A DNA stretch of 64,000 bases from Corallium rubrum (taxonomy: Eukaryota; Cnidaria; Anthozoa; Scleralcyonacea; Coralliidae): positions 16,537,161 to 16,601,160 of the forward strand of contig OZ036002.1 of NCBI GenBank assembly GCA_964035015.1. Reading direction: 5' to 3'. The notes beneath the pieces were generated by a model, which ran no database searches, had not been told where the DNA came from, and saw only the letters and a program-made list of their open reading frames with translations. Position 1 is the stretch's first letter, and the number at the start of each line of letters is the position of its first letter. The position numbers were made by a program, and so were the translations under genes. Below, piece after piece: positions 2,555 to 62,734 of this stretch.

Positions 2555-2841
2555 CTATATGCATAAACTACAAAACCACCGTTTTGAAAAATTAACGTGT
2601 TCCACACACAACGCATGATACCATTTTCCACACTTGTCACATGCCAGCCACAATACTTCTTCAGAAGTTGAACTTTCTTCTAATGGTTCGGGAAGAAAAC
2701 ATGACTGGCAGACAGATTTTTGTAGACAGCTGTTACAATACCATATTCCTAAATTATCACTGCTTTCGATAGCCACACAATTCCTGTGAAAACATTTATG
2801 ACATTCGTCACAGCCTATCCAAGGTGTTCTTTCTAATGCGT
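2555..2841 (-). pseudogene. PHD-finger gene, 3' fragment (tandem PHD fingers)
   Basis: The frame encodes the C-terminal part of a tandem PHD-finger protein. The first finger has WIGCDECHKCFHRNC then WYCNSC; the second has CQSC, WLACDKCGKWYHALC and WFCSLC just before the stop. PHD fingers are Zn-binding modules that read histone H3 tails in the nucleus. The first finger lacks its leading CxxC. That pair is found 7.1 kb away at 9976-10030, beyond the 2842-9975 element, so the gene was split there. A start codon at 2863 lies inside the element's terminal repeat and is probably fortuitous. Whether the host gene belongs to the animal or to another older transposon is unknown; I recall similar PHD proteins as multicopy in cnidarians. 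Confidence 0.75.
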
Positions 2842-2863
2842 CATGGCCAGAAATCGCGGACAT
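2842..2863 (+). repeat. Left terminal inverted repeat
   Basis: This 22-bp sequence is perfectly inverted at 9954-9975. Similarity between the two ends stops right after the 22 bp. Confidence 0.85.
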
Positions 2864-3045
2864 TTGAGCCAGCGTTTGTCAAACAGCGGGTTATCACATA
2901 AATCCCAAGCGCTACGTTCTATCCCCTAATTACCCCTCATATCCTTCGTTGAAAATTTGAGCCAGCGTTTGTCAAACAGCGGGTTAATATCGCATAAATC
3001 CCAGGCGCTACGTTCTATCCCCTTATATCCTTTGTTGGCAACAGG
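2862..3045 (+). repeat. 93-bp direct duplication in the element's left subterminal region
   Basis: Two tandem units start at 2862 and 2955 (ATTTGAGCCAGCGTTTGTCA), followed in both by CAAACAGCGGGTTA, CATAAATCCCA and GCGCTACGTTCTATCCCC. They differ at a few bases and by a small indel. The second unit ends about 15 bp before the chromodomain start codon. The repeats therefore occupy the promoter and 5' leader of that gene and could also be subterminal transposase-binding sites. Confidence 0.8.
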
Positions 3046-3061
3046 CTAGTGTGTTCTCAAA

Positions 3062-4389
3062 ATGGCGGCTAGTTTAAAACGTGCTCGTGACATGGACTAT
3101 AAACAATTAAATTCCTTTTCGTCGGCGGTCCTGTACGATTCCGTACCAAAAAGAAAAAAGGAATCTAGATATTACGAGGTTGAGAGAGTCATCACAAGGC
3201 GACGTGTTCGTTATGTAAGTATTTATATAAACATTGTATTGATCTTAACCGATTCAACTCAAAAGTGTCTCAGTATGAACTCCTAGTATGTCCTAATTTT
3301 TTAATTGTTAATCTTATATGACTCGAATTTGTTTGTGTCTTTGCAGGACCATGACTATTTGATAAAATGGAAAGGATGGTCGTTGGAATTTTGCTCGTGG
3401 GAAACGTCGACAAACCTGACCCAGGATTTATTAACGTATGTTGTATCATTGACATTAGTAGTCTAGTATGGGCCATTCCACTTTATACCCAACCTCCCAC
3501 CATTGGGCTATTCCATTTTAAAGATGTATCCTCCTTATCGAGAACAAGGATTTTAAAATATCCCTGAGGAATTCCTGTCTTAAAACAGACCCCTGAAGAA
3601 TTCCTGATGACAGTGTCTTCCCCCTGAAGAATTTCATTTTTTACTCTTGACCCATGCAGAAATCTTAGTCTTTGAGATTAAAATGTTAGCCTACCCACTT
3701 GGATAAACATATTGGTATATCCTCTTGGATAAACTTGGTGTTCTTTGCCCCCACTCCTCCTTCCCCCAGGATATCCAGACCCTGGGCCTTAAAAAACTAC
3801 AAACCCTCTTGGATGTCTTGTCAGTTTTTCTAGCCCCATGCCCTGGCCCACTAGGGTATTATATACTCCATAACTATTTAACTCTGCTAGACTAGTGGTA
3901 GAAATTCTTTAAAATTACTGTTAACACAATTAATGTTAAAAATTTCTTTTTATCAAATATAGAAACTACAATAAACCAAGCATAAGTGATGAGAGGCTGC
4001 AAGATGCTTGTAGGGAGTTTTGTGCAGGGATTTTGAGCACGTTAAAAAGTTCATCATCGGCATCCGTGTATGCAAAAATAGATCTAGACATTTGGCGATA
4101 TGTCACATTTGGCAAAGGAGAGGCATCGCAGCACATCGGTCATTATTTATTCTGTAAAAATGATTTTGACAGATTAAAATACCTGCCCTCAAACCGGTGG
4201 TACCACATGAATGAAGATGGATCAGGAACTGCAGTGGATTTTCCACTGAAGATAAAACCAGTTTTGTCATGGTCACCATCAACATATGTCAAAAAAGATG
4301 GTCATTTAGCAAAGGCAAAAAGCTTTCCTATGGAAAAAATTTGCATAACTGCTATTCGACGAGCATGTAACATGGACAATATTATTTAA
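3062..4389 (+). CDS. Chromodomain protein, three exons (222 aa)
   Basis: Exons 3062-3214, 3347-3435 and 3963-4389 have GT..AG borders (donors GTAAGT and GTATGT) and keep frame (phase 0, then 2). Residues 38-80 or so form a chromodomain: YEVERVITRR, then DYLIKWKGWSLEFCSWET and NL. The aromatic-cage positions Y, W and W are present. Chromodomains bind methylated histone tails, so a nuclear chromatin-tethering role is expected. The remaining ~140 residues (from NYNKPSISDERLQDAC to the stop) form a domain I do not recognise. There is no SET domain and no second chromodomain. The gene sits between a 93-bp direct repeat and a poly-A signal at 4675, and converges on the transposase-like gene of the same element. 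The ATG follows TGTTCTCAAA and opens the frame MAASLKRARD. Confidence 0.8.
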
Positions 4390-4674
4390 TTTATACAATA
4401 TTTTTTAATTACTAGATCCTAGTTTTGTTTAGGTATAATTATAGAATACCCATCCACTTTCACAATTTGCATATCTGTTATGGTTAATATCAGGGGTAAA
4501 ATACAAAAAACTTCATCATATATCATTGCCTCGTTCTAGTACATACAATAAAAATCTTTGAAATTATATATTTTAAGTGGACAGGTATTCTATAATTGCT
4601 CCTTTGTTTACAATGTCACATTATTACTCTAACTTTTTTCCTGTTGTAAATTACTGTAAAAATATGGATATATA

Positions 4675-4713
4675 AATAAAATTTACTTTCAAGAATGCTC
4701 TAAAAACTTTATT
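4675..4713. terminator. Back-to-back polyadenylation signals of the convergent gene pair
   Basis: AATAAA at 4675-4680 (+) lies about 290 bp after the chromodomain stop. AATAAA on the minus strand (TTTATT at 4708-4713) lies about 150 bp after the transposase-like stop. Predicted transcripts would overlap or abut here. Confidence 0.55.
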
Positions 4714-4859
4714 TTACAATTTGCTTATATCTATAATTTTATTAAAGACAACGGCGGGAACATTCACAAGGACCAATCCAAGGACTATTTTGTTTGCTTC
4801 TTTTCGAGAAGTGGTGGCTCTTAAAAGAGCCATTTTTTATTTTGTTGATACGAACAACT

Positions 4860-7800
4860 TTAGTTCATAACACTTGGTGGGCAATTTTCTTTGTCTTTTA
4901 AAGTGTCAAGCAGGAGTGCCTTGAGCTTCTTAAGACACCGGTACCGAGTTTTCACACCCAAATCCTTCAGTTTTTCTTTTATTTCACCTGCTGTTAAGGA
5001 GTCTATTTCTGCAATTTCTGGCTCTACCTCTAGGACTTCTGCAGAGAGACGGTGTCGTTTGCTTCTTGATTCTTTAATTCCGCCCTCCCAGTAACAACTT
5101 GTTTGTTTTTTGTAGTTTCGTGGAACTCTTGCACATGTTGACAAATGCTCCACTCGCTTTCCAATGACAAGAATATCCTTCGGGGCATCCCACTTGTTTG
5201 ACCTCTGCAAGTGTATTCTTCGGCAATCGTCATTTAATTTTTCAACTCCTGTACCAAGTATAGAAATTTAAAAATTAAAAACAAATAATATACAGTGAAA
5301 TTATCATGGTACCACATTTTTCTACATACCTTGCCCTGTAAATTTCTTTATGCCTTTATGTATATGCATAAATCTTGGCACATGATACACCATAGCATGC
5401 ATATATGGTGTAACTGCTCTAGTGTATCCAAGAAGATTTCCATCAAGTGATGTGAGAAGAGTAATCCAACTGATTGCCTAAAAGATTAGAATAATTATAA
5501 AATGCATTATAAACTTAATGACAGCACTTGAAAACAGAATTGAAAAAGAACAATTCCAAAACATACCTTGTTAAAGAATTCAGTAATTTGTTGGTCAGTT
5601 TGATTCTGCTTTCTCATCAGTTCATACAGTTTATGGAAATCCTTGAGGAAAATTACATAATAATTATAAAGCAATGAATAAACATCTAAGTAGAACAGTA
5701 ATTTTAGCTTAACAACTATATATACCTGCCAGAGTTTAATGACTTTCTCACTGGTATCTGCTTGGATAATGCCTGGTAACTTTTTTGGAAGATTTTGGAG
5801 AAGTAATCTCTTGTCTGACCCCATCAAACTGGTGAATTCATGATGCCCACTCGCTTTTCCATCACCATCCATTTTCTCCCACACATTAAAAGACACCCCG
5901 CAACTGCAGATTGCTTTCACAAGATTCTGCAAATTTCTGTCACTTCTGTGCATGGGACGCTTGTTTAAATTTTCTCTTCTGTCATTTTCAATACTGTTGA
6001 GGACCAGATTTTTGGTGAGTTTATCTAAAATAACAATACAAAATATGAAAGTATTTATCACTTCCTTGATGGTTTTTGTTGTAAAAATGGTTATGGTTTT
6101 TATTGTAAAAAGAATTACCTGTTACACGCAACATCAAACGGAGCTCATCTAAAACCACATTACATAGAGGGATATCAAGAAGAGGCTTATGCTGACAAGA
6201 AAATGTGCTTTTCACAGCACACTCTTTGATCTCATCAATGCTTCTGGATATTTCTCCCCAATAAAAATCTTTGGCTTTTGTCATGTCACATCTATAATAA
6301 ACATGAGATTGCTGGATAGAGATTGCCCTGTGACTAGTAGATCTGTTATGACACAAAGATATGAATTTTATCTTGAAGTGGTGAAAATATTTCATTATTT
6401 TGCTCAGTCGTTAAATATTGTTTTCATTCCACCATATAATTTCCATGCATCTGTATAGTAAATTGTAATATGAATTACTTGTCTTTCTACATATTAATGA
6501 TTTACCTATCGTTCTTGTGGACCTTGCACCAGATACACGCATAATCTGATGTAGCAGATTTCATGCCCATAACAAGCAGAAGAAACTAAACAGATACAAG
6601 AGCTGCATTAGGATACTTCAAATTTTAAAAAGCTAAAATTGGGAGCATGGGTGGCGTGTGCTGTTAGCGCGCTGCCTCTCACCAAAAAGTTAAGTCCGGT
6701 TAGACGGGGTTAGTGCTTGGATGGGTGACCGCTTGGGAATGACCCCGTTGACGGTCTTGGACTCATGTGAGTGGAGTTGTAGTTGATCTCTCCTGTGCTT
6801 TGAGGGTTTTTCGCCGGGTTCTCCGGTTTTCCTCCCTCCATAAAATCAACACCTAACATCTTAGCTGTGATCCGTGGTCTGAACTGTGTCGTCGTCGGCT
6901 GCTTGGAGCGCTTTTGATATGCCTCGACACAGCCACATTGATCTGCGTCCTTAGCAATTCAGCCGCTGGCTGCAAGTAAGGATGATTAGCCACCCAGTCC
7001 TTTATCTTTTATATTCAAGTAATATTTTGAAAATGTCTTATTTACCTTATAATCTCCACCAAGGTATACCCTCACTGGGATATCTTGACCATTGATATTT
7101 ATTTTTTGAGCTTTAATCAAATCATTCACTTGAGCAAAAATTCCAGAGCAAGAACTTTGGATCAACTCGTACGACTCTTGCCCTTTGATGACTGCAACAG
7201 TGTGGTTACCTATCATTACATGAAAATTTGTTACATACAATAATACATGTACCTGTTATAATCACCCAGTGAAAACAAAAGAAAGCGAGACTATTATGGT
7301 ATTATAATAATACATTATATACCACACCTTTTGAAGACATGGCATCAGCCTGGTTATTTAGGATGGAAAATGAGACAACAACAAAGCTTGTCAACCTCGA
7401 CATTTTGGCCCCATCACCGGACACTTTAATATCCAACTTGAAATTTGGGTCTGTAATGTCCAACACAGTCTGAACTATCTGCAACAAAAAGTCAAAACAA
7501 CACATAAAAATTCTGCAAAATACTTCTGCTAAATCAAAATCAAATGTATTAACAAATTACAACTATATAATAACTGTAAGACAGTGTTGTTTAAATTTAC
7601 CATATTTTGGACAACTGATACCAATTCAGTTTTGAAATCCAGTTGAGCTCCTTGAGCTAATCCAGGGGTCCGCATGATGTAACACATCTTGTTCAAATCC
7701 TCTTTACACTGCTTGATCAGGTATGATCGTGGCAATTTATCCATCCCAGCAACCATTGTCAGCTCATGGTATGCTGCATCCCCGATACAAAATTTATCAA

Positions 7801-9339
7801 GAATAAACAACACATTTTGTACCTAAAAAATGACAAAATGATAAATAATGATTTATTTGCCACTAATATCATATGGGCAATTCCATGGTAATTATAAAAA
7901 AATAAAATTGTTAGGAACTGTAAAATAACAAGTTATTTTGGTAAAAATAACAAGTTATTTTGGTAAAAATAACAAGTTATTTTGGTAGCATACATATTCA
8001 GGGCCAACAGGAAAGTCATTTTGGATAAAATACTGCAATTGGATTGAATCGGCGCTATGTTCAATTATTTGATATCCAATGTACCAATATTCTAGTCCAT
8101 CAGAGAGAAGCAATCACCTACCCTTTTTCTCAGATGTTTATTAAATTTCTATTGCAAGTTGGTGTGAAACAACCTCCCAAGTCATAAACTCTTTAATAAA
8201 AAAACTGTAATCTTCTAATATTTTTTGATTTGTCAGCTACCGTTGTTTAAATTTGAGGTCATGACATGTAACATGAGTCACATGACATGAGGCACATATG
8301 TTATGTAACAATTCTTCCCATTGTAATCTAAAATTTAATTTATTTTTATGCATGTACTTTGCCAAACATATATATTAAATAAAAAGAAAGTTTAGCAAGG
8401 TACTATCAAGAGAACATGATTATACATCTAGTAAATATTTCAATATTCTATTCCTATATTCTGTTCTATTTCAATATTCTATACCTTTTGTTTATCGTCT
8501 GTGGATAAATCTTTATAAGAGGCCATTACATTTTCTGAGTAGGATAGGGACCGCTCCACACCGTCTTTATCACTAAAGTTTACAGATTCCAGTTGTAAAC
8601 CAAATGTTTGGGAAAACCACAATGCCTTTTCTACCTTCGTTTTCAACTCCTTCAACTTTCGTCTCTGTTGTCGCTCCCCCACCTCAGTCATTTTGCCACT
8701 GTTATTTTGGAATTCCAACTCCTGACCAAGTTTTTCAATATATTGATGAAGCTTTTGATTTTCCAAAATAATCTCATCATTTGCAGCATTTGCTTTCAAC
8801 AAGTCCTCATTGGCTAGTTTTGCAGCAGCTTTGGTTAGAGCAGCGTCTCTAGTCAAGAAGTCACAGTGGTCTGACAGAATTTTTTTGTCATCTTGGAGGT
8901 TTTTAATGACGGTGTTGTTTTCTTTCAAAACATTTTCCCCTTCCACAAGTGTTTTGAGATCATCTAGTTGAATGGCCACTTTCATTTCCTTTTCCTTTAG
9001 CTCTTTGTATGCCCTTCCACTCTTGCCAATAAATTTGGCTTTTATCGCACTGCAAGCCCTTCTCAGACGCCCTTCCACACGTTGCGAATCTTCTCTGACT
9101 TTCATTCCAGTTTTCTCAAGAAGAAAACCATTAAGAATCTCGACATAGCTACATGGGACTTCCAACTTCAAACGAGCTTGATGCCACTCGCACAATGAAT
9201 GGTAAGGCAGCGTCACTGTCAGAACAACTTGCTTTTCTGAAGTGCTCTGCTGTCGTATATATCGCAGAGAATGGCTATTGTCTACCCGAACATGGTTTTT
9301 GGATCTCTCAAAGTCTATAAACTCCCATACATTTGACAT
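4860..9339 (-). CDS. DDE-transposase-like protein, ten exons (851 aa), SAP-like C-terminus
   Basis: Ten exons on the minus strand keep one frame with GT..AG borders: 9339-8485, 7822-7601, 7478-7328, 7209-7046, 6585-6506, 6291-6119, 6024-5726, 5641-5567, 5477-5330, 5248-4860. An N-terminal segment is followed by a coiled coil (about residues 100-215). Next comes a likely RNase-H-like core: VSGDGAKMS (D about 381), EVN-like helix, LGGDYK (D about 462), then CIWCKVH (C481, C484, H487), an inserted zinc-like motif. Late blocks are TPYMHAMVYH, KKFTGQGVEK and SNKWDAPKD. The last 50 residues (LTAGEIKEKLKDLGVKTRYR) resemble a SAP DNA-binding motif. I recall this as a multicopy, uncharacterised cnidarian/sponge family. 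The catalytic assignment is inference from motif order; the third acidic residue is not identified. No frameshift or stop is seen, so it may be active. Confidence 0.8.
6641..6998 (+). mobile_element. 5S-rRNA-derived SINE in an intron
   Basis: A 5S-like RNA polymerase III promoter block (AGTTAAG, GGTTAGTGCTTGGATGGGTG, ACCGCTTGGGAAT) is followed by a second conserved block (CTCCTGTGCTTTGAGG, CGCCGGGTTCTCCGG, TTTTCCTCCCTCC) and a tail near GGATGATTAGCCACCC. This is SINE3-type architecture; the second block matches what I remember of the conserved central domain of cnidarian SINEs. It lies in the intron between exons 4 and 5 of the transposase-like gene, antisense to it, so it inserted after that gene acquired the intron. 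Confidence 0.8.
7926..7990 (+). repeat. 22-bp tandem repeat, three units
   Basis: TAACAAGTTATTTTGGTAAA recurs with an exact 22-bp period in the first intron of the transposase-like gene. Each unit includes the palindrome-like AACAAGTTATT. No function is evident. Confidence 0.85.
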
Positions 9340-9953
9340 TTTTAAACCTATCTTCGATCTTTACAGAATCGAGTAAAATTAAGCCTAGGGAAAGCAGGGA
9401 AAACATGGACAGCCAGGGGACTACCTTTCGCATCTGCTGACCAATAACCCCGCTGGCACACTGAAAAGCGTGTCGAAGGAAAGCAAAGCATTTGTGATTG
9501 TTGTTCATAACCTCTCTTGGAAAGACTTTTCCATCGAAAAGGAAAGGTTGTTATTTCGTTTACCGAAGTCTAACATTGCAGAATATATACATCAATTCCT
9601 TGTTAATAAGGAAGAATGGTGGCAACTAAGTATTGTTGTATACAAAAGAAGAAACAGCGTGATAAACAGACATTGCCGCGCCGGGCTGTTATGGTTTTCC
9701 TATACAAAAGGTGAGGCAAACTCTTCAACATTTATGTCTAAAAGGAAAGGTAAATGTGAATCTTATTGTGTATCTGTATTAACGATATTAATTCTGATAT
9801 TATTAAGAATTCAATACGATAGTGGCAACCTTTGACTATAATTTCGAATGCACATTAATTAGCGAATTAATAATTAGTCAATACATAAACAGATGCATCT
9901 TGTCAACATTTTCTCAGCATCTTGCCGTGAAATTTTGCGCACGCGCAATGTGT

Positions 9954-9975
9954 ATGTCCGCGATTTCTGGCCATG
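9954..9975 (+). repeat. Right terminal inverted repeat
   Basis: Perfect inverted copy of 2842-2863; ends GATTTCTGGCCATG. The PHD gene resumes at 9976. Confidence 0.85.
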
Positions 9976-10638
9976 CTTGAAGGTTATCCTGCAGACACTT
10001 ACTGCACGTAGCAGATGAATTATTGCTTCCCTGTTGTTTTCAGTGGTGTTACATATATAAAAAACACAAATATATCTCCATAAGCATTAACTATGTTATA
10101 CGGGCATATTATAGCATCTTAACACCTATGGCAGTTGTAAAACTTGATTTTCACTGGTGACAGAAACATCATGCAGGCAAAATGAAACATTTGTTAAATT
10201 AATAACGGAAATCAAACCATGTTAAATCAATACTGTACAATTTCTTGTTTCAAAATTAATATTTGAGAAAGAATAACTTTAAATCAGGAAACTAATGCAT
10301 TGTTGCTACAATAAGCATTTCTCAACTACAGTACTGCACCTTTAGTAGCTTTATTCTTCTTTGAATGTTTTCGGGTAACTGCTGCTTTTTTTGCACCTTT
10401 TCTATGGTGCTCTTGGACCGACTTTAGATGTTCTAACCAGAACGAGATATCAGATGGTTTTAACAGAACCTTTCATGCCAGTTGTTGGCATTCTTCATCG
10501 TTAAACAGCGATTGTCCCTTCTTGTTAAACTCGGTCTTGATAACTTCAGAAGGTGGAATACTCTCAGTTATCTTTTCGTTTTCTTTGCTAAATGCCACAA
10601 GTCTCTGGACGTAAATAATGTCCAGCACACACATCAGC
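9976..10638 (-). pseudogene. PHD-finger gene, 5' fragment
   Basis: Two exons can be read on the minus strand. The first, roughly 10638-10336, runs DIIYVQRLVAFSKENEK .. FNKKGQSLFNDEECQQLA, an in-frame TGA at 10475-10473, then SFWLEHLKSVQEHHRKGAKK and a basic stretch (TRKHSKKNK). The second, 10030-9976, supplies the missing TCSKC zinc ligands of the first PHD finger and stops at the 7.1-kb element. The (GATT)n tail of a CR1-like retroposon abuts the upstream side at 10639, so this gene was hit twice. The WLEHL..RKGAKKA segment preceding PHD fingers is something I recall from other multicopy cnidarian proteins. The donor after 10336 (GTACTG) is weak. Confidence 0.6.
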
Positions 10639-12182: not shown

Positions 12183-15165
12183 TTACACATGAACGATCCT
12201 ATGCATTGGAGTAACATACATAACTTTTCCAACCTCCCGGCATTGTCCAAATCCTGCAATAAAGTTGCACTTGATACGCTGTACTGGTAAATATGAAGCA
12301 GGTCCTCCTACTTCAAATGAAGATACACTCCATAATTCCACTGGCTTTCCATAAGAAGAACAAATTTCTTCTGGCAAACACTGGAACCATTTTACTTTGG
12401 CAAGCAAATGTGGATGGGAGGATTCATTAAACACCCGATAATGTAAAATATAGTACTGCACTTGGGCAGGCCGCTCACTTGCTTCAGGTGCTATTTCACC
12501 ATCAAATCCAATCCAAGATGCAATAACCAGTGACGATCGCTCTGTTGCAGATGCTTGTGAACCACAGTATTCCCCAGCAAATACACAACCCTTGTACTTC
12601 CAGAAAGACCTAGCTGATTGGTTGTTACTCAGTTCAGCAGCAATGTTTGGATACAAAGCCTTGTATACTTCTAACATTTCACGATGTTCATCTTCAGAAA
12701 ACATACGTCGCTGTTTTGGAAGTTGTAATTCGAAGATATTAAGATCACACTGCCAGTCTTCAATCTCACTGATAGGTAATGTTGCATAATTAAGTACACT
12801 GAGAACAGCATCAGGATCCGATAATGTTTCACTTAATGAACCTCTTGCATTGCTTTCATGGTGAAAGATTTGACTTAATTTTTCATTATATGCTTCGGGT
12901 AACTGCATGTTAATCACAATATTGTCACTCAAGAATTTTCGCATTAGTTGGGCCTCAATAGATTTTTGATTTGTTGGAAAATTCCCAAGAATGCCATTGT
13001 ACCTTTCATAACTAAACAACCAGAAAACATACACTGGACCATAGTTCAGTAGGCAACTGATCATATGACAATGCAAATGCATGTTTGGTGTTACATATTG
13101 TTCACCATAAAGTTCTTGAAATGTGGTACAAAATTTATGAAGAAGTTGGTCAGCTTCTTCAATATGACTCAGACGTAAAATACGGGATGTTAACAACCGT
13201 GAAGCTAACACAAAGTACCTCCAACACTCAAGATGCCTGGTTGGGAGAATACCTTGTAGGGCAAAAATCGAAAACAAGTTGGTCCAGTTCTTCCATTGAT
13301 CTGCTGTGAAACCACCGAAACTAGATGCAATCTTTCTGGGTATTCTTCCAACATCGCTTGCAGTCTGCACACTATCTACCCGGGCTTGAATATCTTTCAA
13401 CTGTTTCTCTGAAATTATGTTCAATTGCAGCCACAAATCTACCATGCGTTTTGCTGTACCTAAATAGAAGTTATGCATGGGATCAATAATTGTAAAGCGA
13501 ATAGGTGAGAAATAGCTTAACTCACAGAGAACAGATGATCGGATACCATAAGCAGTCTGTAGTCTATTAAGCTTCTTGAGTTTGGCATTGTTTCAGTTCC
13601 TCACATTTCTGTTTGTGGTCTTCGTCCGTTCGGTTTATCCAAAGGCTTCGGTTGAATCCACTATAATCTTTCTTTCCAAATTCACCAGGAAAAAGTTTTA
13701 AACATTTTGAGCAACCACGATTGGCATTGTGGCTCAAAAAACCAGCAACCTTTCTGGCAGCAGGCAAATCACAGGCAACACAAAGTAAAGCTGCCTTAAA
13801 TGTTACATCCTTGGCACTTGGTGGTTGTGTTAACTTGAAACCTACACCCCACAGTGTTTTTAGTTCTTCCACAAGTGGTTTCAAGAATGGATTTAGGGAA
13901 GTAGATGGATCAATTGGGGGAACAACCCCTACTAGTATAACATTTTCTGGTTTAAAACGCATTGTACGTGGCAAGTTCATTAACGTTATATACAAAACTC
14001 CTACAGAATATTTTCCATGTTTAAAAGGCTGGAAAAAATCAAAGTTAAGCATAAAACCATAATGTCCAGTATCCTTAAAAAAATCTTTAAACTCTTCCCA
14101 AACACGACCATCTGTGACATCAGTAAATAGTCCTGTTCTTTTTTGTCTTTGTCTCCATTTTTCACACGATTCAAGGAACCCATTTCGTTGCAAAAAAGAC
14201 TTCAATGTTTGAATGACACTCTTATAGCAATAAATCTTTCTTGGATAGAAAGTTTTTTTTCCATTTTGAAGGGTCACCTCCTTCATTAGAACTTCACTAC
14301 ATGGTTTTCTTCGCCATCTTTGGGGATGATTTGGAAACCGAATAAATGTACATTTTTTTGATTTTGTATGACCTCCTACACATATGACAGCATCTTCTAC
14401 TGCATAAAGGGAATTGCATGATGGACAAACAACATATTTTTTAAAATTCTCACGATCAATTTTCATGAATTTCCACAGCAAATACAATGAAGATGGCAAA
14501 GCTGCTGCTAAAGTTTTTACAAAAGTCGAATTCTCCCCAATTATCTCAAAAATTGCTTTTAAAAATTGCAGTAACCATAACACAGCTGCATCGGGTAAAC
14601 AACACACAGCTTGCCAGAAACATATGAATGTGCAGATCCATCTCAGCACCAGAAAAGTATTATTTCCCTGATTAGTGGGTGAATCTGGAGTCAAACAACT
14701 GAATAGATCTTTCTCAATCTCCTCATAGCTTACTTCATCCCACTGTTCAGCATAATCATTATCCAGCAAATTGTTTGTTTCATCTTCTGATACTTCTGGC
14801 GAGTCTTGAAACTGCAATAGATACTCAGGAAAATTATCTGCATCATCATCACTGTCCACATAATATTTAGCTTGGCTAGATGCGTGTTTCTCTTCTATTT
14901 TGGTTTTTAGGTAATCCAGATCAACATTTCCTGTATCCTCCTCACCACCACTCATTTGTAAGTCAACATCGTAGTCAAAACCAAAATGAAACTCCTCTGC
15001 ATCTGGTTCATGTGTTGGTGATGAACTGGAAGAAGCACACGACCAGGTTCCTGTATCATTATCAAAGTTTTTCTTTTTGTGATCATAGAAATATCGAGCC
15101 GAAAAAGATTGATTGCAACTAGGACACGTCTTACGAGCTCGTTTTTTGTCCATATTCAAAAACAA
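12183..15165 (-). pseudogene. EnSpm/CACTA-type transposase, single frameshift
   Basis: Two consecutive minus-strand frames (15165-13567 and 13478-12183) form one protein with a one-base frame change near 13575; the second frame reads back to about 13575 without a stop. N-terminus: CPSC-type motif (KKRARKTCPSCNQSF) and an acidic Ser-rich linker. Core: CPSCNSLY, FMLNFDFFQPFKHG, ILVGVVPP, CVACDLPAARKVAGFLSHNA, CSKC, then DPMHNFYLGTAKRMV, TPNMHLHCHM and FWLFSYERYNGILGNFPTN. This motif order is that of animal EnSpm (CMC) transposases, which catalyse cut-and-paste DNA transposition with a DDE active site. It is divergent from the accessory gene starting at 15448. The frameshift probably inactivates it, unless it is a sequence error. 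Confidence 0.85.
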
Positions 15166-20885: not shown

Positions 20886-22619
20886 TTAAACTGAAATGTT
20901 CATTTGTAGCATTGATGTTAATGACTTTGCATGACTTACGGTATACTTACGGTATAATTTACTTATGAAGTAAACCCAAATTTTCGCCCAGTGAAAGAGA
21001 AATACTCTCCTTTTTTCCAGGGTGTCCCATTTTAGTAATTTGCACCGATCTCCGTACGACATCTCACCCCGTTTTTGTTTCAGCGCAATTCTGGATCCTC
21101 TTCTTTGAATTTTCTCTATAGCCTCAGTATCTTTAACTAAATACGGTGACCATAATGGTGTTGCGTACTCAATTACTGGTCTCACCAATGTTTTGTATAA
21201 CATGGAAAATATTTCTGTATTTGACGTGCCAACTGTTCTCGTAATCAAGCCCAGTAATCTATTTGCTTTATTCACGGCAGTATTCACATGTTCACTCCAT
21301 GCTAAGTTACTTGACATTGCTATACCCAGATCTTTAAATAGTTTAACGACTTTAAGTGGTTTTCCTAGAAACGTATACGTAGGTTCCGAGAAATCGGATC
21401 GATGTGTAATCCTCATCACTTCACATTTTTTCTGGTTAAAACTCAATTGCCCGGTATCAGCCCAATCACTCATTCGATGGAGGTCCGATTGGAGAATTTG
21501 GGTATCTTTCTCAACATCAGATAGTTCTCGGTATACTTTTGTATCATCAGCAAAAAGCTTTGTACAACTTTTTATGCCATCGGGCAAGTCGTTTATATAT
21601 ATTAAAAAAAGGATGGGGCCGAGGATTGTCCCCTGAGGTACCCCGGATTTTACGTCTGACCAGCTTGAATATGAACCTCTAATCACTACCCTTTGCTTTC
21701 GTTTTGTCAGAAAGTTTCGAAGCCATAATAGTAACGTGCTACCTACCCCGTATTGTTTTAGCTTGTACAGTAAAGGTTCATGTGGGACACTGTCAAATGC
21801 TTTGGAAAAGTCCAGAAAAGCAACATCAGTTGGGTGATTTCTGTTTCTTGACTTTACCCAGTTATGGTAGCATAGTAATAACTGCGATACAGTGGATCTG
21901 CCTTTCAAATATCCAAATTGGTTTCGATTAAAAATTTGCCTTTCTGTCCAGAAATTTACCAATCTTTCTCTAACAATTCTTTCTCCGATCTTTGATATTA
22001 TGGACGTTAGAGAAACTTGTCTATAGTTTTCTCTTTTAGATTTCGATCCCTTTTTATGGATTGGTGCTATGTTTGCCAGCTTCCATTCTAATGGTAGTTT
22101 ACCTGTAGCAAAAGACTTCTTATACAAGTCGGCCAATGATGATGACAGGTAAACAGCACATTCCTTCAAAATAATAGACGGGATGTTGTCGGGACCAGGA
22201 GACTTATAGACGTCTAAATTTTTTAAGTGAGATTCAACTTCCTCTGCTGTGCACACTATTTGGTTCAGCTCGTCATCTACCATGCGATTTATTCTTGGAA
22301 ACTCCCCAAGAATTTCACTAGTGAACACGGATGCAAAATACGTATTTAAGTGTTCGGCAATGTCGAGATCGTTCGTGATTTCCTTATCTCCCTCTTTCAG
22401 GTGCACTACGTTATTTGTTCCTTTACGTTTGGAATTTACATATCTCCAGAATGGTTTAGCGTTATTTAACTTAAGCTTTCCTGTTAGGTCTGCGATGTAC
22501 TCCCATTTGGCTGCGTTACACTTCTTTTTAACCATATTGTTCAACTTATTGTAGTAATTCCAATCGCGATTTTTGTCAGATCGTTTTGCTTTTCTATAAG
22601 CAGTTTTCACAAGACGGAC
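20886..22619 (-). CDS. Non-LTR retrotransposon reverse transcriptase, 5'-truncated
   Basis: About 575 codons remain open to the stop at 20886. RT motifs appear in order: SPGPDNIPSIILKE, WKLANIAPIHKKGSK, NYRQVSLTSI, NQFGYLKGRST, DVAFLDFSKAFDSV (first catalytic Asp), SGVPQGTILGPILFLIYIND, LFADDTKV (catalytic Asp pair), LSFNQKKCEV, YKTLVRPVIEYATPLWSP and the C-terminal IEKIQRR block. This is the jockey/CR1-like group. No endonuclease domain precedes it. The upstream text belongs to another gene, so the copy is truncated at about 22620. It inserted into the minus-strand gene fragment at 22620-23233. Confidence 0.85.
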   Translation of the reverse strand, partial: VRLVKTAYRKAKRSDKNRDWNYYNKLNNMVKKKCNAAKWEYIADLTGKLKLNNAKPFWRYVNSKRKGTNNVVHLKEGDKEITNDLDIAEHLNTYFASVFTSEILGEFPRINRMVDDELNQIVCTAEEVESHLKNLDVYKSPGPDNIPSIILKECAVYLSSSLADLYKKSFATGKLPLEWKLANIAPIHKKGSKSKRENYRQVSLTSIISKIGERIVRERLVNFWTERQIFNRNQFGYLKGRSTVSQLLLCYHNWVKSRNRNHPTDVAFLDFSKAFDSVPHEPLLYKLKQYGVGSTLLLWLRNFLTKRKQRVVIRGSYSSWSDVKSGVPQGTILGPILFLIYINDLPDGIKSCTKLFADDTKVYRELSDVEKDTQILQSDLHRMSDWADTGQLSFNQKKCEVMRITHRSDFSEPTYTFLGKPLKVVKLFKDLGIAMSSNLAWSEHVNTAVNKANRLLGLITRTVGTSNTEIFSMLYKTLVRPVIEYATPLWSPYLVKDTEAIEKIQRRGSRIALKQKRGEMSYGDRCKLLKWDTLEKRRVFLFHWAKIWVYFISKLYRKYTVSHAKSLTSMLQMNISV

Positions 22620-23233
22620 ATTCTGTCCATCTGAAAGGACGCGCTGGATCAGGAATAGGAAGAGGTATAACATCAATTGTTGGGCCACCATCACACCAAA
22701 AAAGATCTTTCTCTGGCTTTCCCACTTGACAGATTGGATGTGGACAGCCATGTTTGTAACAGCAAACAAGATGGGAAATGTATCTCTGAGGAGCTGACGT
22801 GTTCACATGTGCATTGCAGACATCCTATATCAACTTGATTTCCTTGTATTCGTTTGGATGCTCCAATTCCAACTTAATTTTGTCTTTCTTTGTCCCACTT
22901 AAAAAAGTTTTAACGTGCTTGAAGCTAAGCTTGGGAATTAGATCCCTAAATAGACTAATTGCAGTCTCTCCACAAGGTGCCTGGTCAACCCTTGAAATAT
23001 ACACATCAGTAGCATCTGATATGTTTTTCTGTAACTTAACATTGTCAATCTCGCCAGATTCATCACAGTTTAGACCATTCAATGTCGAGGGGATGAATAG
23101 ATTTGATCTAGCTTTTACCTCGCATCCGTTCTGTAGTTCAACAAGGTTCAAATTGCTCCCACCGCTGTATCTACTTGTTACAAGCTGGACATGTGTTGGT
23201 CTTTCGACATGTCTCTTTGTTCACCAAAATTGA
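22620..23233 (-). pseudogene. Uncharacterised transposon-associated gene, interrupted by the RT
   Basis: A minus-strand frame (about 23233-22825) encodes SSL..SRYSGGSNLNLVELQNGC, RSNLFIPSTLNG, DVYISRVDQAPCGE and ends after KLELEHPNEYKEIKLI. A second frame (22806-22620) encodes CCYKHGCPHPICQ and PLPIPDPARPFRWTECPSC. I recall both blocks as belonging to one recurrent uncharacterised cnidarian family; several Cys/His pairs suggest zinc binding. The frame change and the RT insertion at about 22620 make it a pseudogene. Confidence 0.5.
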
Positions 23234-24162
23234 ATTTATTCGAAACAGGGTGCCTCATCACTTCCAGTATCAACCCTGATGCACAGCATAAATACTAAGC
23301 AGAAGGCCCACCCAGGGGTACGAAGTGTCCTCACTTTTTTAGTGTGCATGTCACACGCCACCATGTTGAAAGCAAGTAAACTCCTGGTGGATCAACAAGG
23401 AACAACATGGCAGAAAACGAAGTCGAGTCACCAAAATGGCTCTAGCTGGAAACGTTTTTGGACGATTTCCATTGAACTTGGGTATGGTGTGAAAAGAAGG
23501 TAAGACATTAATTTACTGGTGGTTGTAAGGTGTGTAAACAAATTTTCCACATGGAATTTAGCTCGCGATTACGATTGGCGGTGTGTCAAAACTGGGTGAT
23601 CACGTTTCCAATAAACAGTTTATTCATGAAGACTGAAGTGCCTTATTATCCTATTTTACAGAAATCAAAAATTTTAAATTGACAACTGCACGGTACGTAA
23701 AGTCTTTACAAATCGTACTGTTATCAAACAAATTATAGGCCAGATAAATGCCGTGAGATAAATGCTATAAATTCTTAGTTCAACTTGGTCAAGTTGAGTA
23801 GTTGGGTGAAAACATTTAATAACAAAAGCATTCGTTCGATTCAATGAGTAAAAATGAATTAAATAAATTATGACTTCTATCCTTTTTGTGTTTGCTGTGT
23901 TCTTATTGTCTTTAAAGTGTCACTGAGACGAAAAGCAACCATATCACTTTGCCTTTTCGATAGGGTAAAGTAGCAAATTACTAGCACTTTTACAAAATTT
24001 TAATTGATTTGGTCAAATAGATGCAGCGTTATGGGCTTTGAAACTTTTCAAAATTGCCGTCCGCCATTAATTTCTGCCATCTTGACCTTGATCTGTCGTG
24101 ACGTCATAGTCTTAACCCTCACAGCGAAGCAAAGCGGATAAACAACAGCTAACAAGGAGTTT

Positions 24163-24690
24163 ATGACTGTGCATCTGTTGTATACTGTGTCGGTTATGTC
24201 TACAACTAATAGTTCTTCTGCTCCCTGGTCTGATACAGAATCTTCTGAGAGATCATCTGTATATCTCACAGCGAATTCTGACGAGGATAACGCCGAACGT
24301 AGGATAAATATTAAATGCGTCGAACCATTAGCTTCGACTGAAGAAATCATCGAGTACGAGTCGACGAAGGCATGTAGTGAAGAGTGTCGTTGCTGTATGG
24401 AGATACAACAGTGTTGCAACAAAATGTTCGAGTATGAGAACGGGGAGAATAAAAAGTACGTTTTGGATCATCCAGGCTTTCACGACGTTTGTCTGAATGA
24501 GTGGGTGCCTGATATCGCTTCTTTGGGGTTGAAGACAAAGAACCGTAGAAATTTAATGCGCTGCTTCAGTTTTCAGAGAGGGTCAGAAGACAAGATCAGA
24601 GTAATAATTACGCATTATAATGAAATTAATAATATGAAAATGAGCAGGTTCTTGAACTGTCTCTTGGCTAGAAATAACATGATGTTTTAA
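24163..24690 (+). CDS. P2X7-receptor cytoplasmic-domain-like protein (175 aa)
   Basis: A single open frame starts at ATG 24163 (a second ATG at 24196, MSTTNSSSAPWSD, may be the real start). The N-terminal ~60 residues are Ser/Glu-rich. Residues ~70-150 match the pattern of the intracellular C-terminal domain of P2X7 receptors: CRCCMEIQQC, YVLDHPGFHDVCLNEWV, then RCFSFQRGSEDKIRVIITH. In P2X7 this domain binds zinc and guanine nucleotide. Here there is no channel part, so it is a solo domain. The gene is the only intact one in the TTAA-flanked element. AATAAA follows at about 24691. Confidence 0.8.
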   Translation: MTVHLLYTVSVMSTTNSSSAPWSDTESSERSSVYLTANSDEDNAERRINIKCVEPLASTEEIIEYESTKACSEECRCCMEIQQCCNKMFEYENGENKKYVLDHPGFHDVCLNEWVPDIASLGLKTKNRRNLMRCFSFQRGSEDKIRVIITHYNEINNMKMSRFLNCLLARNNMMF

Positions 24691-26742: not shown

Positions 26743-29700
26743 ATGGCGGATCCGAAAGGTAAAGTCACATCAAGCGCACAGAAAACGCCCTGTTCAGCTG
26801 TGAACTGTTCAAACAGCAAGCCATCGCATCCAGATCTTAGTTTCTTTCAATTTCTGTCCGATCTAACAAGGTATGTTTTTGCTTTCTGTGTTATTGTTTC
26901 ACCTGTAAAGATTACATTATAGATATGATTGAAGATCATAACTCCTGGAAATTGGTAAAAATTTTAAAATCATTTAGATCAAAAGAATGGGTAGTACTGT
27001 GTCGATGCGAGGACCTTTTGGATAAGAGCGCAAAATATCTATACAATAATTGCAAATTATGTGCTGAACATTTTGAAGATTGTACGTTTTCCAACTTCTT
27101 GAAAAAACCGCCTGAAATGTGGCGCCAAAGCAACACTGTTCAACATCCCAAATCCGACAGCCAAAATCGGTCATAAACGATGAACAATGCAGAAGACAAC
27201 CGCAGTTAGTAAAGGTAACTGGACTTTTCAGTCATGTGCTTAATTAAACCCATGTCTATTTAAAATTATTTACTGAAAAAAATACATTTAAAAATATCCT
27301 TTTAAGAAAGAGGCTTAAATTGGATGAAAGTAGCAGTCTGGAAGGTATGTAAAAGTAAGAACAGCTACATGTACATAATCGGAAACTTTGCATAAAATAC
27401 CTCCCCCAAAAAAATATTTTGAAAATACTCAGTGTTTGAATGTTTCAGTGGGACATATGCTAGGAGAGTACATGTATGTTGAGTAAAAAAGGGGGGTCCT
27501 TCACCATGACCTCTTCCCCCTCGCACCCTTAGACATAAATGGAGAGGAATTAGGTGAGGGGGGCATGATATTCTCTACAGCCAACGAGAAAGTCAGGCTC
27601 ATCATCTGGGAGTGGCAGTAGGAGTGGAGATTGTGGTGTGGTGGGTGGTAAGACTCGATATTTTCAATGTTTCGTTACAAACCTCCACACCTCCTTCCCT
27701 AGCTGGAAATGTGTGACTTCCCTCTAAACTCAAACAAAAACTTCATTGACATTTTTACGCAATATCAATAGACAAAACTCCAAAAATGTAAACAAATCTA
27801 CTGTATATTTAACTGTAATTGTATGCAAGACAAGCCAACATTTTAAAACAATTATAGACCAAGATAATATACCTGGACAAGGAAGTTCTAGCAAGGAAGG
27901 CAACAATGAAGCACAAGATGTTGCTGATATTGAAAGTATAAAAATATTTTGCCATAACCCTTCAGTGGTGGATCTGGTCTGGGCAAGGGGGGGGGGGGGC
28001 AACCCTCAAAAATATTTTTGACAAAAAAATGAAAGCATTCAAAAATGCAGAAAATACAATTATAGCACCTTATGAAATCCATGGTACATATGCACATGCC
28101 CCCATCTGCCTATACATTTTTCACATTAAAAGCTGTTGCCACCCCCCATCCCACCCCCTACAAAACCCCAGGCTGGATTCACCACTGGTCGTTTATATAT
28201 GCTATAATTATCTTAAATTGGCAAGGAGTTCTCGCATATAATTAAGAATTTATCAAGTTCTTTTTTTCCGCTTCAGTGCATCAAGAATTTCTGACAACAA
28301 ACAACTTAAACGATTGCAGCACTCAGACAAGCCAACACCTTTCTAATAATACACCTAGAAGAGAAACAGAAAAAGGTTATTCAATCTCGGAGCAAGAAAA
28401 TCAAGCGACTGAAGACAGCACTTGGGGGTTATCAGGTTTCACGTGGGGAGAAATCCAGACAAGAACAAGCATTGGAAGAGGCACTGCAGAAGTTACCAGA
28501 AAATCTGTCTAATTTTGTTAAGATGCAGCTGGAATTAAATTCAAAAAAGAAACATGGAAGACGATACTCATCGCAGATGAAGTCAACAGCAATCTCTTTG
28601 TACCATGCCAGTGGGAAAGCATATCGGTTGTTATCCAAATTGTTTGTTTTGCCAACTAAATCCTCCCTTAAGAGATATATAATAAAAATGCCAACGGCCC
28701 CTGGTTTTCCCAAGCAGCGTTAAAAATAATAGAAAAGAAAGTAATGCAGATGGATCCAAAAGAAAGATTGTGTACACTGTACATGGATGAAGTTTCGTTA
28801 AAGACCAACCTGTACTACAACATATCTGCTGACAAGATAATTGGTCTAGAAGATTTTGGAGGAAATTACAGAGCCAACAAAGTGGCAACATCTGCTCTTG
28901 TGCTGCTGGTACGTAACATCTCTGGAAAATGGAAACAGCCCATTGGTTTGGTGAATGGAGGATGTCCTAGTGACCTCATGGAAGATTTAGTGAAAGAGGC
29001 AGTTGAAACGTTGGATAGCATTGGTTTGAATGTTGTTGTGGTCATGTTAGAGACATGGGGTCCAACGTTTACAGTTTATCCAAACGCCTGAATGTCACTC
29101 CTGAGAAGCCCTGGTTGATGCACAATAAGAAGAAATACTTCCTGATGTTTGACCCTCCCCATTTGTTAAAGTGTGTACGGAATAATCTAATGAAGTACTC
29201 CATCAAATTTGGTGAGCATATGGCCAAGTGGAAGGACATTGAGGATTTCTACAACAAAGATACAGCACTTTCCATCCGTTCAGCACCCACGTTAACAGAA
29301 AAGCACATACACCCAACCAACCAATTTCAATAAAATGAAGGTCAAGTTGGCAAGCCAAATTCTAAGTCACACTGTAGCAGCCTCACTTTGCATGTATGTT
29401 AGTCTGGGGGCCATTCCATCTAGTGCCATGGGAACAGCAGAGCTTCTTTTGAAATTTGATTCAATTTTTGAGTGTGTAAACAGCTCTACTGTATACTCCG
29501 CCAAAAAGTTTAAGTGTCCTTTTAGTGACAAGACCACACATCAAGAGTTTATGAAAGAGGCAATGACCTTGATAAAAGGAGCAAATGTTTTCGATGACGA
29601 CAATAAAAATGTAACAGGGAGAATTAAGTGCCTAAAGGGATGGTTGGTTACCCTCAATACAATTCTTTTAATTTGGAATCACCTCCGCACAAACCATGGT

Positions 29701-30450
29701 TTTAAGTTTCTCTTGACCAGAAGGCTAAACACTGACCCTTTAGAGAATTTCTTTGGTACCATACGGCAACAGGGAGGGAGTAATGACAACCCAACCCCAA
29801 CACAATTCACCAGTGCATTTAGGAAATTATTTTTTAGTTCATTTCTCACTTCCTCAGCTGGGAATTGCGCTGAAGATCTGGACAACCTTCTTGTCCAGTG
29901 TACAGAAACATCAACTTCACCAGTTCTAGTTACAACGCCAACTCAACCCAATACCCTGGCAATTGGACCAACTGACTACAAAGAGACAAACGTCAACATG
30001 AACATTATCAAAGATAATGCCATTGCATATTTTGCTGGTTACCTGCTCCACAAATGTATGAAGATCCACACTTGTCAAACATGTACAGAAGGCTTGGTTG
30101 CTAACAGTTTGGAAGATAACAAAAACCTACTGTGCTATTTCAAAGCATTTAACCAGGAAAAATCAACGTTTGGAGGCATGTATGCACCAACAGATACCTA
30201 CCTTCAATACATCATTCTGTTGGAAGATATTTTTGTCCAGAACGTTTAGGTTATACCAAGTGGAAGTGATATCTTACGGCTGCTGAAGAATGTACCAGTA
30301 GCACTCCAGTGCTGTGAAAAATTTCCAATTGACTTTCACCTGAAGTTGTTTCTGCGAATGCGAATTTATTACTCTTTGAAATTTGCAAATCGCAATCTTA
30401 AATCCACTAAAAGAAAAGATAGAAAATATCTGAAAGTGTCCCACCTTTAA
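26743..30450 (+). pseudogene. THAP + P-element-like (THAP9-type) transposase pseudogene
   Basis: Exon 26743-26871 and an exon starting at about 26976 form a THAP zinc finger (CSAVNCSN .. WVVLCRC .. LCAEHFEDCTF). Downstream exons from about 28277 carry the transposase: LYHASGKAYRLLSKLF, YMDEVSLKTNLYYN, GLEDFGGNYRANKVATSALV, KQPIGLVNGGCPSDLM, FDPPHLLKCVRNNL, LNTDPLENFFGTIRQQGG, and a final block ending at 30450. P-type transposases cut and paste DNA with an RNase-H-like core and a GTP-binding insert. I count frame changes near 27110, 28370, 28710, 29050 and 29325 and an in-frame TAG at 30247, so the copy looks dead. The THAP exon break lies in an A6 run. Confidence 0.85.
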
Positions 30451-38798: not shown

Positions 38799-41240
38799 AT
38801 GCCTTTGACGAAGGCTACTGATCACAAGCGTTTCAATGTTGGCGCTTATATGAAAACATTACGCCAGCAGTCGGAAACGATTGGTGTAAAAACTAAGGAA
38901 GTCCGAACTCAAGCTAAACGCCTTGAGCGTTTGGATGAAAAGGTATGCAAGGCTCGGTTCGATTGTGTAATATTTAATATTATATATACAGTATAACTTA
39001 AAACATGCTGTGTTGTAGGTAGCCAGTTTAGTGAATGAGATAGAAGATAGAGAAGATGTTAGAAACAGCTTACAAGGTGCCTGTACTAGCAAGAGTAAGG
39101 AGGGGTTTTTAAGCCAGAAAGCAGTCGCAATGAGAAGAAAGATGCCAACGGGTTCGAATAGCTGTAGTGCTTCAACTGGGAAGAAGAGGCGAGTAGAAAC
39201 TATGCAAGCAGCAAGCGAAATACATGGAGGAAGTAATGAAGATCAGAAGCCAGCAATGCAAGGGTTATTAGAAACAGTAGATAGAAAGTGTAGCGAGGCA
39301 GATATTGTTAATTGTATCGATAATTGTCGGAAGTTAAAAGGGCAGGTCTTTCCTAAGATATATAAGAAGGATCTAGGTCTATTGCTGTTTATTACAGTAG
39401 GGGGGTAATGGGAAGGCTTAAGTACAGATCAGTTTATAGAGCATCAGGCTACAAATATTTGCATGGTAGAAAGAGGTCTCGGCGCATATCAGTTGCTAAC
39501 TGTCCCACCCCGAGGATTGTACCATACCATAAATTAATGACATATATAAAGTCTATCGATATAGGTAAGTTGTACAGCGTTTGTGATATGCTTTGTACTG
39601 ATTTAGAAGAGAATGAGAAAGTGAATGGTTGTTATCGAAGCTTAGAGGAGCTTTTGCTCAAGTTGAGTGAGTTTTACCTTAACAATGCAGAGCAATATAA
39701 TCTTACGTTTTGTGGTGAACATAACACATTTCAGGTTTCTTTGGGTGGTGATGGGGCACCATTTGGTAAGGATGATTCAGCGTGTGCATGGCTGGTAAGT
39801 TTTTTGAATATTGGGCATGGGTTTAACGTTTTGAGTAGCAATGAAAATTTTCTCTTGTTTGGAGCTAATTGTAGTGAAAATTGTCCAGCAGTTGTAAATT
39901 TCATCAGAAAGCTAATGATTGAAATAAAAAGGATCGAGGCCAGTTCATATACTGTTTCCTGTAAAGGACAATTAGTAAGTGTTAAATTTATAGTATCTGA
40001 GTTGCCTAATGATATGAAAATGTTGGCATTTTTAGGTGGTGAGCTGAGTACCAGTGCAAAATATTTCTCCACATTTGGTGATGTTTCAACAGAAAATGCC
40101 AACAGCATTAATGGTACTTTTGGTCTGGAGGAGAGCAATACATGGAGGCCATGGAAATATAGTGAAAGGGTTAAAGTAGCTACTTCAGTTGAAAAAATGA
40201 AAATAATTTATTAATAAGTAAAAAAAAGATTTCTCAGACAACCAAGCGAACAAAGATCACAACATTTATTGCACAACAGAAAAGCAGACAGGAATTCATC
40301 CCACTGATTGGCAATCTTATTGACCAAGCTCATGTTGATCCTTTGCATTTAAAGAATAATGCTTGTGCTCTCGCTCACCATCATCTTTTGCACCTAGCAA
40401 TTGCCTTGTCTAATATTTCCAATTCTGTATCTTCTTTTTCTCAGATTTCTCCAAATTCTCCACTATTTAAGTATGTTGAAATATTAAGGTCAAAGTGTTC
40501 TCTTTCCAGGCTGGCGAAGAAAATAATAAAGTGGTTTAATGATACCAAGGCTAATGGGAAGGACTTTGACTATAGATTTACAGGTAAGGACTCTAGACTA
40601 TTTCTCTACAATTTTATGTTTTTGATTGATTTTCTCGAAGAAGGTACTACTGGGAAGCAAAAAGAAATCCTCCATGTTCATGCGTATCTCTGCCTTTTTC
40701 TGCGAAATAGTGTGTGTCTGTTCAGTCGTGTCAACATTACTGCTGAACAGGTAACTCAGTTAAAACATTATTGTCGGAGCTTCTTTCGTGGTTATTGTTT
40801 ATTTTTTAATGTTAACCCTACTATTTGGACCCTGGGCAATGTTGTCCCTTTGCATGTTGAGCAGATGAAAGCTAAGTATGGGCTGGGCCTAGGATTAAAT
40901 TCTATGGAAGGTAGAGAAGCCAAACATCTTGCTGTAGCTAAATACAGTAAAAACACTGCTTACCTTCATAGATGGGAACAGATATTCCAGCATGAATATA
41001 TATCACTAATAGGGGAGAAAGGTTATAATATTAACCACTTTTTTTGTTTCTGCTAAGCCAACTTATTTACCAAAACGTGTGCATGGTGAAAACGTGGAAT
41101 TTTGTATTTGTGGCCTAGGAAAGAGGCAACCATCTGATAGTGGATGCAGGTTTTGTAACGACAGCTTAAGAAGCAAAATAATGACAAGTATTGAAAAATG
41201 CAAAATACTTATTTTAATTAATTTCAGTATGTGCTATTAA
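38799..41240 (+). pseudogene. DDE-transposase-like gene, second family, three homopolymer frameshifts
   Basis: Exon 1 38799-38942 (MPLTKATDHKRFNVGAYMK) splices to exon 2 at 39019 in frame. The protein shows a basic N-terminus, RKLKGQVFPKIY, FQVSLGGDGAPFGKDDSACA, NENFLLFGANCSENCP, ELPNDMKMLAFLGGEL, KNNACALAHHHLL, WFNDTKANGKDFDYRFTGKDS, NPTIWTLGNVVPLHVEQM and a C-terminal CICGLGKRQPSDSGCRFC zinc-like motif. The order GGDGA .. NDMK parallels SGDGA .. GGDYK of the gene at 4860-9339, so I infer a shared RNase-H-like fold. Frame changes lie in a G6 run (39400-39405), an A4 run (about 40198-40201) and a T7 run (about 41040). No other damage is visible, so sequencing error is a real alternative to pseudogene. 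Confidence 0.7.
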
Positions 41241-49666: not shown

Positions 49667-49678
49667 TCTGTCTAGCTC

Positions 49679-50713: not shown

Positions 50714-50996
50714 ATGTTATATTCCTCTTTGGTATACAGTATTCTTCAAACTTTCGAATGACTTGTTCTGGATCATCAGCATCCTCATCGTCGCCAAAAG
50801 TGAACGTATTAAACACTTCAATTGCTTGTTCGCCAGCAAGGTTTAATAACATGCACGTCTTTTCTTTCTTTGATTTCCTCTCATATCCTGACGCTACTAT
50901 GAATATCGAATATCGCTGTTTAAACCTCCTCCAATTTTCAGCGACATTTCCTTCGAAAGACAGTGCATTCGGCTTTACGAATCTTTCAGCCATCAT
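50664..50996 (-). CDS. Ty3-type gag N-terminal part
   Basis: Starts MMAERFVKPNALSF with FEGNVAENWRRFKQRYSIFI, a typical capsid start, and overlaps the next frame by about 50 bases. The homologous reading moves to the other frame near 50690. Either programmed frameshifting or a one-base indel; no clear slippery heptamer was seen. Confidence 0.75.
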   Translation of the reverse strand: MMAERFVKPNALSFEGNVAENWRRFKQRYSIFIVASGYERKSKKEKTCMLLNLAGEQAIEVFNTFTFGDDEDADDPEQVIRKFEEYCIPKRNITYERHVFNKNASDRRNN

Positions 50997-55703: not shown

Positions 55704-55716
55704 ATTAGAATATTGC

Positions 55717-56952: not shown

Positions 56953-57005
56953 TAACAGAAAAGAAAAGGTATATAGTTAACTTACTTCAAATAAGTCATT
57001 TTTCA

Positions 57006-60036: not shown

Positions 60037-60096
60037 TTGTTTGTATCCACTTGACTTTAGAAAGGTGTCGATGGCGTTGTTCCAGCATCTCGCGGA

Positions 60097-61695: not shown

Positions 61696-61766
61696 CCGAG
61701 GTGACCAAATCTACAGTGCCATATATACCGATCTGCATTAGGTTGTTGCTTGGCGACGTTCACATG

Positions 61767-62638: not shown

Positions 62639-62734
62639 ATTTCCACCACTTTGAAATTTACTTGAATAGTACTTTTGGCGTAATCTTACAGTCTGAGGTA
62701 TTGAGATTCTAGCAAACTGGTTTTTCAGGGCATC

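Follow-up and report, generated by a model that had tools for sequence, protein, structure and literature searches.

A putative RAG1/Transib-kind transposon with a transposase gene and a convergent chromodomain gene in Corallium rubrum

An unsettled point in the evolution of adaptive immunity is how a one-gene transposon gave rise to the RAG1-RAG2 pair and for what reason it gained a histone reader. In RAG transposons the genes RAG1L and RAG2L converge, the ends begin with CAC, and the target duplications measure 5 bp (PMC7204232); PMC9435367 also describes the convergent arrangement. RAG2L carries kelch repeats followed, in protostomes but not in amphioxus, by a PHD finger, and the PHD fingers of sea urchin and mouse RAG2 bind methylated H3K4 (PMC7204232). 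According to PMC9435367, the RAG2-binding helices belong to the zinc-binding region from early on and were lost in some Transibs; RAGL transposons, with RAG2L on board, are also reported there from some corals. More broadly, the CMCT clade comprises EnSpm/CACTA, Mirage, Chapaev, Transib, Plavaka, ESTA, and Lanisha, whose shared features include C(2)C and H(3-4)H motifs, CA..TG ends, and duplications of 2 to 5 bp (Kojima 2025, PMC12730594).

Mobile elements that bring their own chromatin-related domains are also known outside the RAG lineage. Among LTR retrotransposons, chromoviruses and algal Gypsy elements supply a chromodomain that is thought to direct integration, as the element described here may do; there, however, the domain is fused to the integrase, whereas here a DNA transposon encodes it as a protein in its own right (PMC12477816). 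Certain fungal DNA transposons likewise have a separate chromatin-related gene aboard, of the TET/JBP type, but its product is an enzyme that works on DNA methylation rather than a histone reader (PMC12730594).

In a 64-kb window (the whole stretch of DNA that was analyzed), we observed two convergent genes, for a transposase and a chromodomain accessory protein, in an element that is probably an intact cut-and-paste transposon related in kind to RAG1/Transib (CMCT) and potentially autonomous (Table 1). The anatomy proposed by the first-pass annotation, a DNA transposon with inverted ends, convergent open genes, and a PHD finger divided between its two flanks, was borne out. Like RAGL/ProtoRAG elements, it combines a RAG1-core fold, a DDE triad, and a CxxC/HxxxxH zinc site at the same spacings with a layout of two convergent genes within terminal inverted repeats, and its second gene encodes a histone-reader domain, as does that of many RAGL elements (the RAG2 PHD finger). 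It differs from them in that a chromodomain takes the place of the PHD finger, no kelch or RAG2 match occurs in the element, and its ends are CATGG rather than CAC, with no 5-bp target duplication. Transib, as described in passages of PMC7204232, has a single gene, CAC ends, and 5-bp duplications, none of which we found here. The CxxC and H(4)H motifs between the second D and the E of the transposase agree with the CMCT clade, as do 5'-CA..TG-3' ends, provided that the element truly terminates at its inverted repeat; in contrast, with such ends a duplication of 2 to 5 bp is not seen, and the word "chromodomain" is absent from the main text of PMC12730594. By these feature comparisons the element is neither a RAGL nor a Transib element; we think that it works like one.

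Table 1. Features of the element and of its insertion site (window coordinates)
Feature	Position	Strand	Remark
Interrupted PHD-finger sequence, 3' part	2558..2841	-	insertion target
Left terminal inverted repeat	2842..2863	+	CATGG..., 22 bp
Subterminal direct repeat, left end	2862..3026	+	32-nt and 39-nt blocks, spacing 93-96 bp
Chromodomain gene exon 1	3062..3214	+	ATG
Chromodomain gene exon 2	3347..3435	+	
Chromodomain gene exon 3	3963..4389	+	C-terminal conserved domain, stop
Histone-type 3' stem-loop	4792..4836	-	Rfam RF00032, just below cutoff
Transposase exon 10	4860..5248	-	catalytic E725, SAP-like end, stop
Transposase exon 9	5330..5477	-	HxxxxH (H700, H705)
Transposase exon 8	5567..5641	-	
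Transposase exon 7	5726..6024	-	
Transposase exon 6	6119..6291	-	acceptor picked by homology
Transposase exon 5	6506..6585	-	CxxC (C481, C484)
Transposase exon 4	7046..7209	-	second catalytic D (D462)
Transposase exon 3	7328..7478	-	first catalytic D (D381)
Transposase exon 2	7601..7822	-	
Transposase exon 1	8485..9339	-	ATG; helical, coiled-coil-like N-terminal part
Right terminal inverted repeat	9954..9975	-	22 bp, identical to left one
Interrupted PHD-finger sequence, 5' part	9976..10030	-	

The two arms of the terminal repeat (22 nt each) are 100% complementary, and with up to 3 mismatches allowed the end sequence occurs at just these two sites within the window. Chance alone would produce perfect inverted repeats of 22 bp or longer about 5e-4 times per window, and the longest one in simulated windows (n = 20) was 18 bp. 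The window is rich in repeats, with 24 perfect inverted repeats of at least 16 bp, one of them 23 bp long; only 3 of these 24 have arm starts 2 to 15 kb apart (22, 18, and 16 bp). The perfect inverted ends noted earlier were therefore confirmed by their full complementarity, their rarity by chance, and their restriction to two sites in the window. Beyond these arms, the outer 260 bp of the two ends have no same-orientation words of 10 nt in common. The 22-bp end had no exact match in the viral (viral_contigs) or prokaryote (genome_contigs) collection, and no additional copy of either gene was detected elsewhere in the window at E 1.

When the flanks of the element are joined with no bases added, they form an open PHD exon that matches Pfam PHD profile positions 1 to 47. 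The joined sequence scores 39.2 bits against 40.3 bits for the left part alone, i.e., without gain, and in both cases the match falls in two stretches. The letters beside the element are ATGCGT and CTTGAA, and no 2- to 5-bp target duplication is visible at this locus with CA..TG ends. If the CATG palindrome were taken as a 4-bp target duplication, the ends would become GG..CC and the PHD frame would have been broken before insertion; the exact closure of the PHD exon leads us to favor the CA..TG ends. Farther upstream, a stretch that by eye resembles an earlier exon of this PHD sequence contains a stop, and the insertion target may therefore be a decayed repeat rather than a working host gene. 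The proposal of a host PHD finger split exactly at the element's ends holds in that the joined flanks reopen a PHD exon, whereas its status as a working host gene is less certain given the upstream stop.

The gene on the minus strand (9339 to 4860; 10 exons) encodes a protein of 851 aa. A first splice choice gave 868 aa; the alternative exon 6 acceptor gives the 851-aa version, which aligns to relatives without a gap at the exon 6 junction. All introns in both genes are GT..AG and both readings are free of stops and frameshifts, in agreement with the earlier description of two convergent spliced genes without breaks. The transposase contains the series D-D-CxxC-HxxxxH-E with RAG1 spacing, the first D lying outside the printed RAG1 alignment. 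In the predicted structure of a close relative, rather than of the spliced window protein itself, the catalytic core superposes on RAG1, with about 15% identity in structural alignments; the model of relative P0001 also includes a long helix. On its own, the 851-aa protein has no Pfam match, including to Transposase_21 and RAG1, and in the transposase alignment the Pfam RAG1 family (PF12940) matches 2 of 32 members at E <=0.1, one of which is above the cutoff. We found no sequence-level match of the transposase to a named CMCT member other than RAG1. Motif content and structural prediction together establish the large protein as a predicted transposase with a complete RAG1-type catalytic core. 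Sequence and profile evidence, together with the fold predicted for a relative, thus upholds the earlier suggestion of a DDE-type transposase, RNase H fold included; the view of it as an unnamed kind gives way, in that a RAG1 catalytic core was found and the protein belongs near the CMCT/RAG clade. The CxxC-to-HxxxxH distance is 216 residues, compared with 207 in mouse RAG1, and so may leave room for a docking site.

The plus-strand gene (3062-4389; 3 exons) encodes a protein of 222 aa, in which residues 38 to 85 match Pfam Chromo (45.5 bits against a cutoff of 25.1; E 7e-12). The domain aligns about equally with the HP1 and Polycomb CBX types, and CBX6 is the best match for the chromodomain relative P0119; the chromodomain claimed for the second gene is therefore genuine. 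Y38, W59, and W62 line up with Y, W, and F of HP1 at the positions of the aromatic cage, and by this alignment the cage is intact. The remaining 140 residues represent a separate conserved family with a confidently predicted fold (mean pLDDT 95); neither Pfam nor the PDB offers a convincing match to it, and no known fold resembles it at any meaningful level. No Pfam family besides Chromo was detected in the small protein, and kelch and RAG2 matches are absent from it.

We recovered 87 relatives of the transposase, and 10 named species hold one; 56 of the 87 are not in the 32-member transposase alignment, and 8, mostly short or partial, were left out of another. Relatives of the small protein numbered 8 by single-sequence search and 78 by profile search, and 74 of the 78 cover at most 64% of the query. 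The family alignment consists of 41 relatives from both searches, and by eye the cage residues are kept in the rows that cover them. A complete relative (51% identity over its full length) is present in Paramuricea clavata, and more chromodomain-bearing pieces occur there as well as in Acropora cervicornis and one further record. Searches with the transposase profile gave 57 pattern matches in viral_contigs and 56 in genome_contigs, and with the small-protein profile 64 in viral_contigs, with 0 relatives in each case. The searches behind the 87 transposase and 78 small-protein relatives are limited by shared words, annotation, and gene calls that split intron-bearing genes.

By analogy with its family, the transposase would nick the DNA and form hairpins at the CA..TG ends and then join the ends to target DNA. 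The C-terminal domain of the small protein may dock on the transposase, while the chromodomain would anchor the complex to methylated tails of histone H3 and thereby influence the choice of integration site. The chromodomain protein would then be an independently acquired functional counterpart of the RAG2 PHD reader.

The chief rival to this reading is that the chromodomain protein acts against silencing, occupying H3K9me or H3K27me on the element itself and displacing HP1 or Polycomb without any choice of target. The intact cage and the about equal alignment with HP1 and Polycomb CBX types would suit such a role, and the TET/JBP dioxygenases of fungal transposons have been proposed to remove silencing marks (PMC12730594). 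We nevertheless consider it unlikely, as simple competition would make the strongly conserved second domain superfluous, and the gene sits across from a RAG1-type transposase in a place like that of RAG2. That domain's want of a convincing Pfam or PDB match also means that it bears no enzyme signature. A still less probable explanation is that the gene is a passenger, i.e., a host gene captured once and without a role in transposition. The element was seen as a single copy, the pair of genes and the ends being known from this locus alone; 8 of the 10 named species with a transposase yielded no named chromodomain relative, and, judged by the length of the longest contig, the 87 transposase and 78 small-protein relatives have no contig in common. 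Because the searches need shared words and gene calls are split, this overlap of species and contigs is weak evidence either way, and some of the chromodomain relatives are unnamed. On the other hand, the chromodomain-plus-domain family occurs in the species with the closest transposases (both species with a named chromodomain relative also have the two closest transposases), and it includes the full-length P. clavata relative, with the cage residues retained, by eye, in the rows that span them. With a divergent family of its own, the protein is unlikely to be a recent passenger.

Repbase could already list the lineage of this element within a known superfamily such as Chapaev, Mirage, EnSpm, or Transib, with only its chromodomain gene undescribed, and members of the CMCT clade do have CxxC, H(3-4)H, and CA..TG termini (PMC12730594). 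We regard this, too, as unlikely: the window protein lacks Transposase_21 and RAG1 matches, the window's CACTA-like gene, compared as a single sequence with the transposase profile, gave no significant alignment (E 0.3), the ends read CATGG and not CAC, and the gene pair is absent from the literature among the matches listed. The earlier remark that no named superfamily has this pair was thus sustained in full-text literature, among those matches. It is possible that the element represents a new superfamily. As for the transposase transcript, a histone-type stem begins 28 nt past the stop codon on the sense strand and is the sole match to the histone 3' UTR stem-loop in 64 kb. It has the consensus six-pair stem, a UUUA loop, ACCA, and then purine-rich AAAAGAAG; such a purine-rich stretch is required in the 3' end of replication-dependent histone genes. 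That it is a chance hairpin behind which the mRNA is simply polyadenylated seems somewhat doubtful. Its RF00032 score is slightly below the curated cutoff (32.4 against 34 bits), and three AATAAA motifs on the transposase strand (4841, 4743, and 4713) leave polyadenylation possible. Against chance stand the E value of 1.9e-5 over the whole window, the correct strand and position with the purine-rich stretch after it, and a 19-nt core that occurs once in the window (<=3 mismatches) and in 0 of 100 shuffles. Moreover, tblastn with H2A, H3, and H4 showed no histone gene in the window, its just two matches spanning 11 and 22 residues (E 5.2 and 9.7).

If our preferred reading of a transposase guided by a chromodomain protein is true, a second, independent pairing of a RAG1-core transposase with a separate histone reader would give the RAG1-RAG2 union, so far a single event of history, an experiment to be compared with, and it would let us ask whether reader proteins serve activity, site choice, or restraint. 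It would also offer a naturally occurring combination of transposase and reader for chromatin-directed integration. The stem-loop in the transposase 3' UTR may couple expression to S phase, presumably the time when cut-and-paste elements can gain copies; if it is used, transcripts of the transposase gene would be produced in S phase and would terminate in the manner of histone mRNAs. Among the matches listed, no paper on histone-type ends of transposase mRNA was apparent from titles and the beginnings of abstracts. We know of no earlier transposase gene with a histone-type, cell-cycle-coupled mRNA ending, and this would be the first case if the 3' end is real.

One extra frame without a Pfam match, 148 aa from stop to stop, lies inside the element at 9389-9835 (+).

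Mobile elements are highly abundant in the window: its retroelement regions comprise one that is Gypsy-like, one that is Copia-like, and a pair resembling LINEs. The CACTA-like gene matched Transposase_21 (E = 2.1e-12), with a DUF4218 match below the cutoff. The DDE-looking frames had no Pfam match at E 0.01; judged by eye, their protein possibly represents an additional family resembling RAG or the CMCT transposases (the clade including EnSpm/CACTA, Mirage, Chapaev, and Transib).

Mobile-element features in the window
Feature	Positions	Strand	Basis or content
CACTA-like gene	12183-15165	-	Spans two overlapping reading frames
LINE-like retroelement region	20886-22802	-	Pfam on one frame, remainder by eye
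P-element-like transposase piece	29296-30249	+	TNP-like RNase H and GTP-binding insertion domains
DDE-looking protein	39366-41056	+	Two overlapping frames; GGDGAPFGKDD ... VPLHVEQM ... NSMEGREAKH
Gypsy-like retroelement region	47126-50716	-	Pfam on one frame, remainder by eye
LINE-like retroelement region	54717-57683	-	By eye
Copia-like retroelement region	59053-62734	-	Pfam on one frame, remainder by eye

A perfect 23-bp inverted repeat (23911 / 25491, arms 1.6 kb apart), longer than the 22-bp repeat of the main element, contains nested 21-bp arms (24098 / 25307), and both pairs enclose an ORF at 24142-24690 for which no Pfam match was found. This structure is perhaps another small transposon.

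According to PMC7204232, a CCGHC tail is a feature of RAG1L, the RAG1-like protein of RAG-like transposons, in invertebrates. Four distant relatives of the transposase (P0077, P0078, P0084, and P0085) carry a C-terminal CCHC-like zinc knuckle in place of SAP, and Pfam zf-CCHC_2 appeared, below the cutoff, in 2 of the 32 sequences searched.

Within an intron of the transposase gene lies an insertion (6640-7010) which, by eye, we take to resemble a 5S-rRNA-derived SINE; no 5S match was listed there by Rfam at E 0.1. The transposase stop codon is directly followed by a histone-type 3' stem-loop (4792-4836, minus strand), the sole such match within the window.
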